Positions 18,183-25,319 of a stretch of DNA of 32,063 nucleotides are shown here, in pieces. Every line of letters starts with the position of its first letter. Positions within the stretch are counted from its first letter, which is position 1. The position numbers were made by a program, and so were the translations under genes. This stretch comes from Defluviitalea phaphyphila (GTDB lineage Bacteria > Bacillota > Clostridia > Lachnospirales > Defluviitaleaceae): contig NZ_JWID01000019.1 in NCBI RefSeq assembly GCF_001466305.1, forward strand, positions 1-32,063. Direction: 5' to 3'. The notes beneath the pieces are model-generated. The model saw only the letters and a list, made by a program, of their open reading frames with translations, was not told the origin of the DNA and searched no databases.

Positions 18183-19058
18183 TTAATTTTCAGTACTATA
18201 AGTTAAATCTTTTCCATCTGATGTGAATATAATAGTTCCATTTTTATCTGTTCTTAGAATTTCTACATTATTTTTTATTAATTTATCTATAGTTTCTTCA
18301 TGAGGATGTTTATATTTATTATCTTGTCCTACGCAAATAATTCCATAAGATGGGTTTACAGCCTCTAAAAACTCGTCTGTAGTAGAAGTATTACTCCCAT
18401 GATGTCCTATTTTTAGCACATCTGATTTGAGTTCTATATTATTTAATAGCATTTCCTCTTCCGATTCTTTTTCTGCATCCCCAGTAAATAAAAAGGAATG
18501 ATTTCCAAATACATATTTTATAACTATAGAGTAATTATTAAAATCCTCATACTCATCTTTATTAGGAGCTAAAATAATCCATTCCCCTTCATCTAATGTA
18601 TATTTGTCTCCAACTTTTGGAGTAGTAATTTTTAATCCTTTATCCTTTATAGCATTAATTACATCTTCAAAAGTTTTTGTTGTATTGGTTACTTTTGGCA
18701 TTAATACTTTTCCTATTTCAAAAGTATTAATTACTGTATCTAGACTACCTATATGATCTTCATGGGGATGAGTTCCTACTACATACTCCAATTTTTTTAC
18801 TCCTTGTTTTTTTAAATAATCAATAATTAAGTCTGAATCTGCATTATTACCGGCATCAATCAACATATATTTCCCATTTTGATCAATAAGGATAGAATCT
18901 GCTTGTCCTACATCAATAAAATGTACCTTCAAAATTGAAGAATTTGTGTAGGTACTCTCTGCTTTTTCTTTAGAAAAATCCTCTGTCTGTGAAGTACAAC
19001 CAACATTAACAAAAATTAATAAAAATGTGAGTAATAATACTAGTAATTTTCTTGTCAT
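18183..19058 (-). CDS. Secreted ComEC/Rec2-like metallo-beta-lactamase-fold hydrolase
   Basis: Exported hydrolase of 291 residues. Residues 1-21 form a signal sequence ending VNVGC; C21 makes a lipoprotein likely, though the lipobox is imperfect. The metallo-beta-lactamase fold follows: VHFIDVGQADSILI (45-58), the metal-binding THPHEDH (H97, H99, D101, H102), FTGDAE, and IGHHGSNTST. This is the extracellular domain type found at the C-terminus of the DNA-uptake channel ComEC, here as a stand-alone protein; such domains may degrade a DNA strand or other phosphodiesters. The start at 19058 is preceded by AGGAGACGG. It is first gene of a pair with DUF3006. No competence gene is nearby, so a nuclease or nutrient-scavenging role is only inference. 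Confidence 0.88.
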   Translation of the reverse strand: MTRKLLVLLLTFLLIFVNVGCTSQTEDFSKEKAESTYTNSSILKVHFIDVGQADSILIDQNGKYMLIDAGNNADSDLIIDYLKKQGVKKLEYVVGTHPHEDHIGSLDTVINTFEIGKVLMPKVTNTTKTFEDVINAIKDKGLKITTPKVGDKYTLDEGEWIILAPNKDEYEDFNNYSIVIKYVFGNHSFLFTGDAEKESEEEMLLNNIELKSDVLKIGHHGSNTSTTDEFLEAVNPSYGIICVGQDNKYKHPHEETIDKLIKNNVEILRTDKNGTIIFTSDGKDLTYSTEN

Positions 19059-19339
19059 AATACCGTCTCCTATTCTAGTTTTTTATTAATTTTTTATAAT
19101 TTTTTTAATAATAACACAGGCTTTTTTTAAAAAACATAGGTATATTGTATTAATTTAAAAATTTAATTAAATTCTATATTTTATATAAAATATATGATTA
19201 TTAATAATTTTTTTAAGTTTTTACTATACTTAAATAAAATTACAAACACCATCTACTTTTATAATTATAACTATTTAAAATTTTAAAAAAATGTGGTAAC
19301 ATTTAGTATGTGTTAAATTATATACAAGGGGGAATGTTA

Positions 19340-20062
19340 TTGGATTCTATTATTAGTGTTAAAAAAATTAGAAAAGTTTATCGAATGGGTGAAGAAAAAA
19401 TTGTAGCTTTAAATCAAATTGATTTAGAAATTCCACCTGAAGAAATCTGCTGCCTTTTAGGCCCATCTGGTTCTGGTAAATCTACTCTACTTAATATGAT
19501 AGCTGGACTAGAAAAGCCTACAAAAGGAAGCATAATTATAAAAGGTAAACATATTGAGAAAATGAATGAAGCCCAACTTGCTAAATTTAGGCAAAAATAT
19601 ATTGGCTTCATATTTCAATCTTATAATTTAATTCCTTCTCTTACAGCTTTAGAAAATGTATGCTTACCTCTTATTTTTCAGGGAGTTCCAAAAAAGAAAA
19701 GAGAAAAATTAGCAAAAGAAATGCTAGAAGCTGTAGGCTTAGGTTCTAGGCTAAAACATAAACCTAATGAAATGAGTGGAGGTCAACAACAAAGAGTAAG
19801 TATCGCCAGAGCTTTTGTAAATCGTCCTACTATTATATTTGCCGATGAACCTACCGGAAACTTAGATACCCATACTACTATTGAAATTTTAGAACTTATG
19901 ACTAGACTTGCAAAAGAACATAAGCAAACCATGGTTATTGTTTCTCATGATTTAGAAGTTTCTGATTATGCAGATAGATTGATTCATATGAAAGATGGTG
20001 AAATAATTTCCATAGAAAATAAATCAAATGAAAGGAAAGATTTAATTTATGAAAAGAATTAA
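19340..20062 (+). CDS. ABC transporter ATPase, MacB/LolD type
   Basis: ATP-binding subunit of about 240 residues. Walker A is GPSGSGKST (residues 41-49), the signature is MSGGQQQRVSIARA, Walker B is IIFADEPTGNLD and the H-loop is VSHDLEV; the pattern is that of the LolD/MacB/FtsE group, which drives mechanotransmission rather than classic import. The frame opens with a GTG at 19310 and an ATG at 19334, but AAGGGGG (19326-19332) is well placed only for the TTG at 19340, which I choose. The downstream gene overlaps its end by 14 bases, and the third gene encodes the matching FtsX permease, so the three work as one complex at the membrane. Confidence 0.92.
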   Translation: MDSIISVKKIRKVYRMGEEKIVALNQIDLEIPPEEICCLLGPSGSGKSTLLNMIAGLEKPTKGSIIIKGKHIEKMNEAQLAKFRQKYIGFIFQSYNLIPSLTALENVCLPLIFQGVPKKKREKLAKEMLEAVGLGSRLKHKPNEMSGGQQQRVSIARAFVNRPTIIFADEPTGNLDTHTTIEILELMTRLAKEHKQTMVIVSHDLEVSDYADRLIHMKDGEIISIENKSNERKDLIYEKN

Positions 20063-22502
20063 TAAATATTTTATATCCTTGTTTATATTTGTTTTTTGTT
20101 TTAGTTTTATTCCATCTCATTTTGTATATGGAGATGATGTAGAACTTAGCACATGGATTAAAACAGTTTATATATCTGGAAATGAACTAGACGCTGGAGA
20201 TACTCTTACTGTTGAAATTATGGTTAAAATGTCTTCAAATAGTGAAAAATCTGTACGATTACAATCTATTGAATTTTCAGATGGATATAAAAACCTTGGT
20301 AGTAGCAGTTTAGGTTTTGATTTAACTCCTGGTTCTTATGATGGAGATGACAATCCTCTAATTATAAGAAAATTAGAATATACAGGGGGTGGCAGTAGAA
20401 ATATTTCATATACTATTGAATATGTAGAATTAACTGAAGATGGAAAGGCTACAAATAAAACTGGAACTATTACAGGAAGTAAAAGTATTGATGATTCTAT
20501 CACAGTTGTCGATACCAAGAAATATCAACCTCGTATTTCTCTAGTAAACGATGAAGTTATTGAAATTGGAGCTGGAGAATATAAAGAAGTTAGCCTTCCT
20601 TTTATCAATGCTGGAGGTTTTACTGCTAAAGGTGTAACTATTACCATTGACACTAATAAGGAAGAAACACAAATACCTATATTAATAAAAAATGTAGAAA
20701 AATTATATTTTAGTTCTATAAATAGGAATGCTATTAATTATTTAAACTTTGGTATTGAAGTAGATAGAACAGCTGAACCTGGACTTTATCCTATTACCTT
20801 AAAATATAAATATACAAATGCTTCAGATGATGAATTTGAAGGAGAAGATACAATATATGTTAAAGTTTTAAATACTCAAATGCCTGCAAGACTTAAATTT
20901 GGAATTAATAACCCAGAACCTCTTACTCCAGGAAATTCAAGTGTATTAAATCTTGAAGTAACTAACCAAGGAGAATCCACTGCTAGTAATATTGAAATTG
21001 CTTTGACTGGATTAAATAAAGATGGTATTACGGTTGTAGATGAAAGTAATATTTCCTTTATTCCTTCTATCTCTCCTGGTGAAACTATAACAACCCAATT
21101 TAAAATTATGGCATCAGGAATTTTAGAGGGAAGCGTTGAACCTATAACTATTGAATATACATATGCCGACGGTACTACAGAAAAACAAGAAGGTTCTCAA
21201 CAAATTTTTATACCTTTAGATGGAAAAACCCTAGGTCTTTCTGAATTAACTATCGAAAATATTACATCTCCTAGTGATTCTGTAAAAATAGGAGAAGACT
21301 TTAATATTGGATTTACTTTAGTAAATAATTCTGAATATAATGCTAAAAGTGTTAAAATCACATTAGATGGTGGAGATATTCTAAAACCCAAATCTCAAAA
21401 TATATATGCATTTAAAGATTTTAATGCTGGAGATAAAAAACAATTTTCTTGTACATTTTGGGCAAGTAGTGATGCAGAATATAGAAACTACCCTATTGAG
21501 ATTAAAGTAGAATATATTCCTTATCAAGATGGAGATATTGTTACTTTTAGTCAATATGTTGGAATCAATGTCGATGGAAGTAAAAGTGATGATACTAAAA
21601 GTAAACCTAGAGTTATTATAGGAGAATATAGTGTAGAACCTCAGATTGTTAGAGCTGGAGAAGAATTTTATTTAAGTTTAGGTTTTACAAATACTCATAG
21701 CAGCAAAGTTGTACAAAATATGAAAGCTACTTTAACTATTAATGAAAAAGTTTCTGATAGTTCTGGTGAAGATGCAGGAACTGTTTTCACTCCTGTAAGT
21801 GGACAAAGTAATATGTTTTATATTTCCGAAATACAACCTACTACTACAATAACAAGAAATGTTCGTATGTATACTGTCCCTGATGCAACTCCTAAAACTT
21901 ATGAAGTAACTGTAGAAATGGAATATGAAGATTCTAATGGTGAATCCTATACTGAAACAGCTAAAATTGGCATACCTGTACAACAACGTACTCAAATTGA
22001 TATAGGAGAAGTTCGTATTGATGGAGAAGCTATAGTAGGGGAACCTGCATATGTAGTTTCCCAAATATTTAACACAGGAAGAACTAATATAAAAAATTTA
22101 ATGGTAACTGTAGAAGGTGACTTTGAAAAACAAGAGGCTAATTTATTCGTAGGCAACTTCCAACAAGGAAATGAAGAATATTTTGAGGGAGTTATTATCC
22201 CAACTCAAAGTGGGGAATGTAGTGGAGAATTAGTAGTTACTTATGAAGAAATTACAGGAGAACAAAGGGAAGAAAGAATCCCATTTACCATGAATGTTAT
22301 GGAAGCTCCTATGATTGAAGATATTAATATGGGAGTTGATGGTATGGATATGATGCCTCCTGAAATGGAAGAAGTTAAAAAACCATTTTACAAAAAACCT
22401 GTTGTAATATCAGGTATATTAGCTTCTCTTGTTTTAATAGCCGCAATTATTATAATAATTAGAAAAAGAAAAAAAAGGAATGAAATTGATATAGATGAAT
22501 AA
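20049..22502 (+). CDS. Large membrane-anchored extracellular protein with CARDB/Ig-like repeats
   Basis: 817-residue surface protein. Residues 1-28 are a signal peptide (KRINKYF, a Phe-rich core, cleavage near VYG). Most of the protein (about 30-745) looks like some six beta-sandwich repeats of 100-130 residues, each with a phrase such as 'GEEFYLSLGFTNT', 'TPGNSSVLNLEVTNQGES', 'KIGEDFNIGFTLVNNSEY' or 'VGEPAYVVSQIFNTGRT', the CARDB/COG1361 S-layer-like pattern. A Met-rich acidic segment (7 Met in about 25 residues before position 770) precedes one C-terminal membrane helix and a basic tail KKRKKRNE. It sits between the ATPase and permease genes, overlapping both (14 and 8 bases), and replaces the usual MacA-type adaptor. 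Its role, perhaps substrate capture or a wall-spanning conduit, is inferred; no function is known to me. Confidence 0.8.
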   Translation: MKRINKYFISLFIFVFCFSFIPSHFVYGDDVELSTWIKTVYISGNELDAGDTLTVEIMVKMSSNSEKSVRLQSIEFSDGYKNLGSSSLGFDLTPGSYDGDDNPLIIRKLEYTGGGSRNISYTIEYVELTEDGKATNKTGTITGSKSIDDSITVVDTKKYQPRISLVNDEVIEIGAGEYKEVSLPFINAGGFTAKGVTITIDTNKEETQIPILIKNVEKLYFSSINRNAINYLNFGIEVDRTAEPGLYPITLKYKYTNASDDEFEGEDTIYVKVLNTQMPARLKFGINNPEPLTPGNSSVLNLEVTNQGESTASNIEIALTGLNKDGITVVDESNISFIPSISPGETITTQFKIMASGILEGSVEPITIEYTYADGTTEKQEGSQQIFIPLDGKTLGLSELTIENITSPSDSVKIGEDFNIGFTLVNNSEYNAKSVKITLDGGDILKPKSQNIYAFKDFNAGDKKQFSCTFWASSDAEYRNYPIEIKVEYIPYQDGDIVTFSQYVGINVDGSKSDDTKSKPRVIIGEYSVEPQIVRAGEEFYLSLGFTNTHSSKVVQNMKATLTINEKVSDSSGEDAGTVFTPVSGQSNMFYISEIQPTTTITRNVRMYTVPDATPKTYEVTVEMEYEDSNGESYTETAKIGIPVQQRTQIDIGEVRIDGEAIVGEPAYVVSQIFNTGRTNIKNLMVTVEGDFEKQEANLFVGNFQQGNEEYFEGVIIPTQSGECSGELVVTYEEITGEQREERIPFTMNVMEAPMIEDINMGVDGMDMMPPEMEEVKKPFYKKPVVISGILASLVLIAAIIIIIRKRKKRNEIDIDE

Positions 22503-23865
22503 TGTGGATTTAATATTAATGAGCTTACGTAATTTGTGGCGGCGCAAATTACGTACATCCTTAACCATATTAGGAGTAGTTATTGGTACAGGAGCCATTA
22601 TCCTTATGCTTTCATTAGGATTTGCCATGAATGTAAATTTAGAAAATTCTCTAAAACGTTGGGGAGATATATCTATAATTAATGTTTGGCCTAATTATGA
22701 AAATGTTAGATCTTTTAATGAACCACCTAGTATAAGTGAAGATGATGTGGCTAAACTTCAATCTATTCCCAATGTAGAATTAGTTATCCCTGAGTTATCT
22801 TTAAATATAACTTCAGTTATTGGCAAATATAAATCAAATGTAAGAATCATAGGAATTTCCTATGAAGCTATGAAAATTTTAGGATATGATTTAGATAGAG
22901 GAAGATATTTTTCTGATGATGAAAATAATGTAATAATAGCCGGCGGTAGAGTTGCTAGTAATTTTTATAAAATTGGTTCATCACAAGATATTAGATGGCA
23001 GCGAGGATGGGATGAAAACGAAGAAGCTCCTTTTGAAATATTAGACCAAAGAATGAAAATATCATTTGATTATAACTATGGAGAAAGAAATGCTCCTACT
23101 CCTGCGGTAAAAACAAGACCCATTAATGTTTCAGTAATAGGGGTATTAGACCAAAATAAATACGAAACTAATTACCAATTTTATATGCCTGTTGAAGCTG
23201 TTAAAAAACTTATTCTAAAACAAAGGGAATATGAAAATAAACTTGCAAAAGCTAATGGAGATAAAAATGCTAAATCAAGAATTAGTAAAGAATTTACTTA
23301 TGATCACGTTCAAGTAAAAGTATCAGATGTTAAAAAAGTCGATGCAGTATTAGAACAAATTCAAAATATGGGCTTTGAAGCCTATAGTATGACACAAGGT
23401 TTAAAAGAAGTTAAAAGAATGTTTAATGGTATTCAAATGGTCTTAGGCGGAATAGGAGCAGTCTCTCTATTTGTTGCAGCCTTGGGTATAACTAATACAA
23501 TGATTATGTCCATTTATGAAAGAACTAAAGAAATTGGAATTATGAAAGTTATAGGTGCTCTTATTACTGATATTAAAAAAATGTTTTTAATCGAAGCAGG
23601 AATGATTGGGTTTATTGGAGGAATAATTGGAATACTAATTAGCCTTCTTATATCTTTCTTGCTTAATCGATTTGGCTCCGGAGGTATTTTAGGAAATATG
23701 TTTGGAACACCAGAAGAAGGAGTTAAAACTTATGTTTCAGTTATTCCCCTATGGCTTCTTGGAGTATCTGTAATTTTTAGTAGTTTAGTTGGAATGCTTG
23801 CAGGATATTTCCCAGCAAGAAGAGCTATGAAATTATCAGCTCTAAGTGCAATTAAGACAGAATAA
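22495..23865 (+). CDS. FtsX/MacB-type ABC transporter permease
   Basis: Membrane permease of 456 residues with the MacB topology: a basic N-terminal elbow (SLRNLWRRKLRTSLTILGVVIG), TM1 near residues 19-42, a large extracellular domain (about 45-310), and three further TM segments near 318-340, 366-392 and 418-440. The FtsX-domain signature GALITDIKKMFLIEAGMIGFIGG and the terminal YFPARRAMKLSALSAIKTE are both present. The start overlaps the preceding gene by eight bases, which suggests translational coupling; no strong ribosome binding site stands directly upstream. It ends at a good terminator. Together with the ATPase it should form a type VII-like ABC machine that pushes or extracts envelope substrates rather than moving them through its own membrane domain. 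Confidence 0.93.
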   Translation: MNNVDLILMSLRNLWRRKLRTSLTILGVVIGTGAIILMLSLGFAMNVNLENSLKRWGDISIINVWPNYENVRSFNEPPSISEDDVAKLQSIPNVELVIPELSLNITSVIGKYKSNVRIIGISYEAMKILGYDLDRGRYFSDDENNVIIAGGRVASNFYKIGSSQDIRWQRGWDENEEAPFEILDQRMKISFDYNYGERNAPTPAVKTRPINVSVIGVLDQNKYETNYQFYMPVEAVKKLILKQREYENKLAKANGDKNAKSRISKEFTYDHVQVKVSDVKKVDAVLEQIQNMGFEAYSMTQGLKEVKRMFNGIQMVLGGIGAVSLFVAALGITNTMIMSIYERTKEIGIMKVIGALITDIKKMFLIEAGMIGFIGGIIGILISLLISFLLNRFGSGGILGNMFGTPEEGVKTYVSVIPLWLLGVSVIFSSLVGMLAGYFPARRAMKLSALSAIKTE

Positions 23866-23895
23866 TTAAGGACTCTTTTGAGTCCTTAATTTATT
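23865..23895 (+). terminator. Terminator of the ABC operon
   Basis: ATTAAGGACTC and GAGTCCTTAAT form a perfect 11-bp stem around TTTT (23865-23890), followed by a T-rich stretch. The stem begins at the last base of the permease stop codon. Confidence 0.9.
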
Positions 23896-24377: not shown

Positions 24378-24412
24378 TTATATAATTTTCTAAATATATG
24401 GAGGTGAATTTT

Positions 24413-24673
24413 TTGGATGGTGTATTTAAAGCTCTATCTGATAAAAACAGAAGAAAAATTTTAAAAATGCTTAGAGAAAAAGATATGTCTGCTGGAGAAA
24501 TAGCTAAATCTTTTAATATAAGTAAACCTTCTTTAAGTCATCATTTAAATATATTAAAGCAGGCTAATCTAGTTCAAACTGAAAGGCATGGACAGAATAT
24601 AATATATTCTCTTAATACTACAGTATTTCAAGAACTTTTAACTTGGATTTATGATTTTAAAGATAAGGAGTGA
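24413..24673 (+). CDS. ArsR/SdpR-family transcriptional repressor
   Basis: Winged-helix DNA-binding protein of about 86 residues: ALSDKNRRKILKMLREKDMSAGEIAKSF, recognition helix ISKPSLSHHLNILKQANLV, and the wing TERHGQNIIYSL. There are no metal-binding cysteines of the ArsR alpha-3 type, and it most resembles SdpR. An ATG at 24398 lies inside the ribosome binding site itself (ATGGAGGTG), so the TTG at 24413, with GGAGGTG correctly spaced upstream, is the likely start. It is followed after seven bases by an SdpI-like membrane protein, as in the Bacillus sdpRI immunity operon. There, SdpI sequesters SdpR at the membrane when toxin is present; the same logic may apply here. Confidence 0.88.
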   Translation: MDGVFKALSDKNRRKILKMLREKDMSAGEIAKSFNISKPSLSHHLNILKQANLVQTERHGQNIIYSLNTTVFQELLTWIYDFKDKE

Positions 24674-24680
24674 ATAAAAT

Positions 24681-25319
24681 ATGAAGCAAAGTAAATTATT
24701 ATGGTTTTTAATTATAATATCTTTAATTGGAACTATTATTATATTTCCATATTTACCTAAGCAAATTCCTACCCATTGGGGAATTAATGGCGAAATTGAT
24801 GATTATAGCTCTAAATATATAGCTTTCTTTTTAGGAAGTCTTCCTGCTTTAAGTTATCTATTAATGTATTTTATTCCTAAATTAGACCCTAAAAAAGAAA
24901 ATTATAAAAAACATGAAAAAGCATATTCCATAATAGCTATAAGCTTTTCTATCGCATTAATTTTTATTCATTGGATTATTTTATTAGCTTCGATAAATAT
25001 AATTACTAATGTAGGATTTTTTGTTAAATTAATTATAGGATTACTTTTTATAATCATGGGAAATTATATGACTCAACTTAGATTTAACTTTTTTGTTGGT
25101 ATTAGACTTCCTTGGACTCTTTCTAATGAAAATGTATGGAAAAAAACCCATAGAATCGCTGGAATAGGATATACATTAATAGGCATTCTTTTAATTATAA
25201 CTTCATTTATTAAAAGTTCTATAAGTTTCATGAGCTTTTTTGTTAGTCTTATACTTTTAGCTATTGTTACTATGATATATTCATATATACAATACCAAAA
25301 AGAAATTAAGTCCAAATAA
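24681..25319 (+). CDS. SdpI-like / DUF1648 membrane protein
   Basis: Polytopic membrane protein of 212 residues with about six or seven hydrophobic helices. The N-terminal segment FPYLPKQIPTHWGINGEIDDYSSKY is the DUF1648 signature, and the later FVGIRLPWTLSNENVWKKTHRIAG is the SdpI-family signature. In Bacillus SdpI gives immunity to the cannibalism toxin SDP and signals to SdpR. The start has AAGGAGTGA upstream. It is coupled to the ArsR/SdpR-like gene. No sdpABC-like toxin genes are in the window, so it may be defence against neighbours' toxins, or a general envelope-stress protein. Family is firm, role inferred. Confidence 0.9.
   Translation: MKQSKLLWFLIIISLIGTIIIFPYLPKQIPTHWGINGEIDDYSSKYIAFFLGSLPALSYLLMYFIPKLDPKKENYKKHEKAYSIIAISFSIALIFIHWIILLASINIITNVGFFVKLIIGLLFIIMGNYMTQLRFNFFVGIRLPWTLSNENVWKKTHRIAGIGYTLIGILLIITSFIKSSISFMSFFVSLILLAIVTMIYSYIQYQKEIKSK

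Follow-up and report, generated by a model that had tools for sequence, protein, structure and literature searches.

A contig of Defluviitalea phaphyphila (NZ_JWID01000019.1, positions 1 to 32,063; this 32,063-nucleotide stretch is the window) raises the question of what a large surface protein does in a MacB-type ATP-binding cassette (ABC) machine, in the place that a MacA adaptor takes elsewhere. An ABC ATPase and a MacB/FtsX-type permease are encoded on either side of an 817-residue protein with immunoglobulin (Ig)-like repeats, labelled MID here for its middle gene. The trio is a real, conserved three-gene system and a variant of the MacB-type ABC machines. With a probability of about 0.58, MID is the obligate extracellular subunit of a MacB-type mechanotransmission complex and holds the position of the MacA adaptor.

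All three open reading frames (ORFs) lie on the + strand and overlap by 14 bp at the first joint and 8 bp at the second. The initial annotation had called both joints overlapping and the three genes one unit, a view that the overlaps and the conserved gene order bear out. The features of the locus, all on the + strand, are:

19340..20062, +: ABC ATPase of the LolD/MacB class, 240 residues from TTG 19340 (ABC_tran, motifs, AAGGGGG)
20049..22502, +: MID, 817 residues, Ig-repeat surface protein with a C-terminal anchor (ORF, Pfam, alignment, AlphaFold2)
20049..20132, +: putative MID signal peptide, residues 1-28, hydrophobic from residue 4 (cleavage site by eye)
20145..21575, +: more variable part of MID, domains D1-D4 (residues 33-509; AlphaFold2 strands)
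21612..22301, +: MID core D5-D6, residues 522-751, conserved (identity over 73 trios)
22302..22400, +: MID stalk, acidic and methionine-rich, residues 752-784 (low model confidence, methionine enrichment in the family)
22401..22499, +: MID membrane helix, basic stop-transfer segment and short tail, residues 785-817 (AlphaFold2, family alignment)
22495..23865, +: MacB/FtsX-type permease, 456 residues, ectodomain at about residues 57-298 (Pfam, AlphaFold2, fold match)
23864..23891, +: terminator-like stem-loop with a 12-pair stem, 3' of the permease (stem scan)

Where the unit is present, its arrangement is conserved. In an order sample of 196 genomes, searched with a permease profile (E up to 1e-50) and a MID profile (E up to 1e-15), the permease occurs at 113 places in 105 genomes and MID in 108 genomes. 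MID lies upstream of, and on the same strand as, 110 of the 113 close permeases; the gap between the two matches is at most 674 bp in these 110 and at most 50 bp in 71. One exception (genome G464, locus L203) meets the end of its contig exactly where MID would be, and another (G438) is a partial permease match with MID on another contig. The prospect raised in the initial annotation, that MID might be absent or exchangeable in most orthologous operons, is not borne out in this sample. In a phylum sample of 299 genomes, the best 53 permease places divide into 37 with MID and 16 without, one of the latter (G285:C32) being a fragment in a genome whose other fragment has MID. A search with MID alone finds a match in 29 of 57 relatives.

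Named loci, 80 kept of 224 relatives and all read as Clostridia or Bacillota, give the same picture. Wherever enough DNA is present, MID has the ATPase upstream (71 of 71 loci) and the permease downstream (75 of 75 loci); five of these come from tblastn only. Among the carriers of the trio is Anaerotignum neopropionicum DSM 3847 (L068). The MID and permease genes overlap in 69 of 74, a count made from longest ORFs that may overstate overlaps. The loci share no fourth gene; the neighbour cluster that comes next in frequency is present in 15 of the 80, and no conserved substrate gene adjoins the trio in flanks of up to 6 kb. With just three genes, a single main order and no further shared component, the trio can be rebuilt and tested directly.

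The initial annotation had described MID as a membrane-anchored protein of repeated CARDB/Ig-like domains, and its predicted anatomy agrees. An AlphaFold2 model of the single chain has a mean predicted local distance difference test (pLDDT) of 77 and a predicted template-modelling score (pTM) of 0.34, so the arrangement of the domains is unsure. The strand list of the model contains six predicted beta-sandwich domains; pLDDT falls below 50 at residues 757-786, and a helix spans 785-814. Pfam assigns NPCBM_assoc (44.1 bits) and CARDB (29.6 bits), both above cut-off, and names one stretch of the six domains (about residues 287-383). The same families are found in 22 and 21, respectively, of 24 MID family members (E 0.001). 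MID therefore has the features of the C-anchored NEW3/CARDB Ig proteins that accompany ABC-2-type transporters. The HlyD family of MacA adaptors is not listed by Pfam for MID or the three neighbouring ORFs scanned, and the SLH match that an SLH-anchored surface-layer protein would have is absent from MID and from the families listed for 24 relatives.

MID varies in length from 271 to 909 residues in the 100 ORFs uncut by a locus end, and longer forms reach 1385 residues (L190) and 1473 residues with one end open (L189). Conservation is highest in its last two Ig domains. Over 73 non-redundant trios, mean identity is 54% in D5, 40% in D6 and 31% in D3-D4, compared with 33% in the permease ectodomain, 60% in the permease membrane part and 67% in the ATPase. 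The 11 invariant columns of the MID profile A1 all fall within residues 520-722. Foldseek matches of MID in the Protein Data Bank (PDB) are long beta-sandwich chains (ciliary, mastigoneme, alpha-2-macroglobulin and complement proteins) with template-modelling scores of 0.11 to 0.20 of the query among the 50 matches listed, and were set aside as shared fold only. The MID sequence has a single PDB match at E 0.88, and profile A1 has 45 between E 0.0062 and 1 (arrestins, factor XIII and others). A plasmid search with MID residues 518-817 gives no match at E 1e-3, and PADLOC reports nothing for MID and partial matches for the ATPase and the permease. At one locus of the same family (L166:3612-6066, genome G005), MID is split into two overlapping frames, while the ATPase and permease frames are open.

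The partners of MID place the trio in the MacB/type VII ABC superfamily. The permease matches MacB_PCD (82.6 bits) and FtsX (64.4 bits), both above cut-off; it has four hydrophobic segments, with a MacB-like ectodomain between transmembrane helices TM1 and TM2. Its single-chain model (mean pLDDT 77, pTM 0.58) aligns with 5xu1_M (Z 24.2, root-mean-square deviation (rmsd) 7.6, 367 residues) and with 9o9x_C of ytrEF (Z 23.6, rmsd 6.7, 400 residues), and fold matches to these two, 9xro_E, 9rld_E and 5gko_A range from Z 21.8 to 24.2. The predicted fold is of the MacB/YtrF/LolE kind. Other classes fit less well. The permease scores 63.7 bits against a cut-off of 225 in the FtsX_Gpos model, and the ATPase 210.7 against 264.85 in the FtsE model, which does not place the pair in FtsEX; Pfam lists no ABC2 family for the permease; and a BceAB-type system is not indicated by four, rather than ten, helices and no kinase in the three neighbouring ORFs scanned. 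The ATPase matches ABC_tran (129.9 bits), and its best NCBIfam match is LolD (251.9 bits, under the cut-off of 307.75). Its Walker A (residue 41), signature (SGGQQQR, 146), Walker B (FADEPTG, 167) and H-loop (SHD, 202) strings are all present, as in a LolD-type partner with intact motifs. AAGGGGG lies about 7 nt 5' of its TTG start, the spacing judged by eye, and an alternative GTG start at 19310 would give 250 residues (ORF 19310-20062).

The nearest relatives of the permease show which kind of protein fills the position of MID elsewhere. The seven nearest MID-less permeases (L127-L133) follow an ATPase gene and precede a gene for a protein of about 500 residues with an N-terminal helix, and HlyD and biotin-lipoyl domains are found in all five of these proteins tested with Pfam. 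The proposal that a surface protein here occupies the place of the MacA adaptor gains from this finding. Among 133 permease ORFs of 380-560 residues from all loci, 103 have MID, 10 have a MacA-like gene downstream, 7 have one upstream and 13 have neither by this test. The trees took in 39 of the 103 MID permeases. In a quick tree of 68 permeases, the presence of MID requires 3 changes, against 22.1 in shuffles. In a second tree, from which four long-branch rows including L134 were removed, 38 MID permeases are set apart by a branch with support 78, or 37 of them by one with support 98 when L141 is omitted. The simplest reading of these sequences would be one exchange of MID and a MacA-type partner, in either direction.

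The initial annotation also held that an adaptor has no clear role in a Gram-positive cell. This premise stands in part: the portions of PMC5985334 consulted call the role open, yet describe MacA-type adaptors as widespread in such cells. That an adaptor has no place there is further countered by the adaptors of the nearest relatives and by two HlyD-type proteins in the genome itself (G000, C1:63578-64435 and C34:193442-194575); classical adaptors therefore coexist with the MID system. No Omp85 match is found in the D. phaphyphila genome, which is consistent with a single membrane.

MID and the permease appear to evolve together, D5 most of all. Distances between D5-D6 and the permease ectodomain correlate at 0.83, and at 0.59 once ATPase distance is removed; none of 300 permutations is as high. 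Corrected in the same way, D5 alone gives 0.57. The segment ahead of the membrane helix is a second mark of the family. The initial annotation had noted it as acidic and rich in methionine, and it proves to be a family trait. In 91 non-redundant MIDs, three without a clear C-terminal helix having been dropped, the 42 residues ahead of the helix contain a median of 4 methionines against 0.71 expected from the ectodomain. At least three are present in 70 of 91 stalks and at least one in 90. All 91 stalks are net acidic, with a median acid excess of 8. In an earlier count of 109 rows, duplicates included, methionine makes up 9.7% of the stalk and 1.7% of the ectodomain.

These observations suggest a model for the machine in which stoichiometry, contact and force transfer are inferred. 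Two ATPases and two permeases would form the motor. MID would be made beside the permease through the overlapping genes, and D5 above all, with D6, would dock on the permease ectodomain, the MID membrane helix lying beside the permease. The flexible acidic, methionine-rich stalk would link D5-D6 to the helix and follow or gate movement of the ectodomain, while the outer Ig domains, variable in number, may extend into the wall zone. ATP-driven motion would then pass via the stalk to the rod, and the output would be either displacement of an amphipathic molecule from the outer face of the membrane or action on a partner in the wall or at the surface. The initial annotation had suggested that MID may reach across the wall, bind a substrate or transmit force from the ATPase to a surface layer. 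By analogy with SpMacA, which must have both its cytoplasmic part and its membrane helix to stimulate the SpMacB ATPase (excerpts of PMC5985334), the MID helix and tail could stimulate the ATPase, from the opposite end of the protein.

Several observations weigh against MID as an obligate subunit docked in this way. In the order sample, a MID match at E 1e-15 is lacking in 88 of the 196 genomes, including two of the same family as D. phaphyphila, which makes the system frequent and not universal. At one permease (G384:C85, L202) neither MID nor the ATPase lies within 3 kb upstream, the gene order at L141 is MID-ATPase-permease, and the permease that accompanies the 271-residue MID of L134 sits elsewhere in the tree on a long branch. 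The membrane-adjacent D6 co-varies less with the ectodomain (0.35, ATPase-corrected) than the outer D3-D4 (0.43), and D5-D6 also correlates with the permease membrane part (0.50); for both reasons co-variation does not map the interface, and its use as an interface map was abandoned. Part of the co-variation of MID and permease is shared descent. Seven permease positions are fixed differently with MID and with MacA, none of them in the ectodomain, and no partner signature for that domain is found among them. A C-terminal Asp-Glu was considered as a docking motif and rejected, since the 8-bp overlap with the start of the permease gene largely accounts for it: 28 of 37 MIDs with this overlap end in Asp-Glu. 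Finally, both AlphaFold2 models are of single chains, which leaves the contact a proposed one.

The published systems of this kind supply both the likeness and the contrast. According to the portions of the sources consulted, the MacB kind works by mechanotransmission (PMC5985334), and Gram-positive MacB systems with MacA-type adaptors are known in YknXYZ and Spr0693-0695 (PMC5985334, PMC8277102). Like YknWXYZ of Bacillus and Spr0693-0695 (5XU1) of Streptococcus pneumoniae, the MID trio has a separate ATPase, a four-helix permease with one ectodomain and, as those papers describe, an extracellular partner encoded in the operon. In those systems the partner is a HlyD/MacA adaptor, hexameric and with its helix at the N-terminus, whereas MID has Ig-like domains and a C-terminal helix. 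YtrEF of Bacillus subtilis (9o9x) is the best PDB sequence match of the permease (E 3.1e-23), but for the ytrGABCDEF operon the excerpts of PMC12772383 name an ABC transporter together with a repressor and a small membrane protein, and no Ig-repeat protein. COG1361, COG0577 and COG1136 are named in separate passages of PMC3415414, as far as its excerpts go. Searches of the open-licence PubMed Central literature find no report of the MID trio or of the NEW3 trio described below, judged by titles and abstracts, and they yield no documented function for the MID family, the other finding that the initial annotation said would undo its proposal.

Two other readings of MID are unlikely, and to the same degree. 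In the first, the ATPase cycle would move the Ig rod so that it acts on the wall or an S-layer, somewhat like FtsEX with its wall hydrolases, and with no transport. The rod-like repeats do vary in number, and FtsEX of B. subtilis is likewise a type VII ABC unit that needs membrane partner proteins, the co-factors SweD and SweC (PMC6705773, in excerpts); unlike FtsEX, the MID trio has no known wall hydrolase partner. SLH proteins accompany the MID-permease pair in 36 of 36 genomes of the phylum sample (judged by eye) against 215 of 263 without it (Fisher p 0.0012); for the order sample the corresponding figures are 102 of 103 and 64 of 93. However, SLH proteins are common and these counts ignore relatedness: the 20 listed of the 30 SLH-free order genomes all come from families f6 and f9. 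Neither 24 MIDs nor four long ones have a wall-binding domain by Pfam, and the common neighbours in the 80 named loci include no hydrolase or surface gene.

In the second, the stalk would capture cationic amphipathic peptides at the membrane surface for the permease to expel, giving efflux or shielding. Its acid excess and methionine richness would suit such a task, and, according to excerpts of PMC5985334, relatives of MacB in Gram-positive bacteria give protection from SDP, AS-48 and LL-37. The stalk is predicted to be unstructured, though, and a regulator, a sensor kinase or a peptide gene is not a common neighbour in the 80 named loci.

It is more improbable still that MID is merely a co-transcribed surface protein unrelated to the ABC transporter. 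MID relatives do occur away from this permease at seven loci, and the contact between the two proteins is a proposed one; against this stand the constant position and order of MID at 110 of the 113 permeases, the lack of any other common neighbour and the MacA-type gene of the nearest relatives. Furthermore, six of the seven relatives elsewhere adjoin an ABC ATPase or FtsX-type permease gene. Copper or silver handling through the methionine motifs of the stalk is very improbable: methionine-rich segments bind Cu(I) in some transport proteins, but the 91 stalks together hold no cysteine and 12 histidines, 21 of them have fewer than three methionines, and no recognisable metal gene is among the listed common neighbours.

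The relatives of MID in other contexts bear on whether the stalk belongs to the MacB form. MID occurs without an adjacent permease at 14 places (9 in the order sample, 5 in the phylum sample), of which 8 were inspected and 7 compared, the match at L199 being excluded for want of a C-terminal part. None of the 7 has three or more stalk methionines (Fisher p 9e-5). As five of them are more distantly related (profile E 1e-18 to 4e-43), descent and not the partner may account for the difference. The other two, L187 and L195, are close relatives (E about 1e-126 to 1e-132) and make a stronger case for a partner-linked stalk, yet they count as one event. Both (L187:1781-3844 and L195:4353-6377) are full-length, belong to one genus and have no methionine-rich stalk; upstream of them lie genes for an ABC ATPase and for a six-helix protein, the latter weakly ABC2-like at L187. 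Elsewhere, relatives are found with an ABC ATPase and multi-helix proteins (L196, L197), and shorter ones lie downstream of a different FtsX-type permease (L200:3488-4663, L201:1023-2729). At L198:3710-4633 a MID-like C-anchored protein adjoins Wzz and AAA_31 genes, possibly for polysaccharide export.

A second trio in other Clostridia combines an Ig protein, an ABC ATPase and a multi-helix permease at 12 of 12 chosen loci (L143-L154), which were taken from a longer list of weak MID matches with Ig proteins of about 390-400 residues and assigned by gene layout. Pfam finds NEW3 in three of the Ig proteins and ABC2_membrane_2 in two permeases; one ATPase was tested. Like MID, the protein of this NEW3 (NPCBM_assoc) and ABC-2 trio has a signal-like N-terminal helix, Ig-like repeats and a C-terminal helix, and its gene lies directly beside those of an ABC ATPase and a multi-helix permease. 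Unlike the MID trio, it has an ABC2_membrane_2 permease where tested and the Ig gene first; its last Ig domain joins the helix directly, and a methionine-rich stalk is present in 0 of 12. Other weak MID matches of about 670-690 residues (L155-L160) have no ABC genes nearby, and the one scanned has a cohesin domain.

From the two trios it may be ventured, tentatively and with the odds still against it, that C-anchored Ig rods are general, exchangeable extracellular subunits for both MacB-type and ABC-2-type machines of these bacteria, and that the methionine-rich acidic stalk is the specific coupling element of the MacB form, through which the permease ectodomain drives the rod. MacB-type machines act via a partner outside the membrane, for example the MacA ring or a hydrolase of the wall, and the Ig-rod clade suggests that partners of a quite different kind can be driven by the MacB motor. 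If so, a stalk-driven rod would be a form of force transfer distinct from both the MacA ring and the FtsEX-hydrolase pairs. The clade is also a natural comparison for the task of the adaptor in cells without an outer membrane.

The surroundings of the trio add minor observations. Terminator-like sites in the region number 6 against 2.4 expected; a promoter scan finds 45 sites, below the shuffle mean of 57.2, and so says nothing. At 24398-25319, an ArsR-type regulator lies beside an SdpI/YfhL-family gene in an sdpRI-like pair. A link from these genes to an SDP-type toxin was considered and dropped, since their linkage to the trio is not conserved: the 80 named loci contain no SdpI match and one ArsR match. 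Among five loci of the same family, an ArsR/SdpI pair lies some 10 kb away from the trio at L165, an ArsR gene is seen near the end of the DNA at L166, and L163, L164 and L167 have neither. On the other side of the trio, at 18183-19058, a ComEC-like metallo-beta-lactamase domain forms a protein of its own (ComEC_Rec2, 166.1 bits, under the cut-off of 190.05), with a leader that, by eye, resembles that of a lipoprotein.
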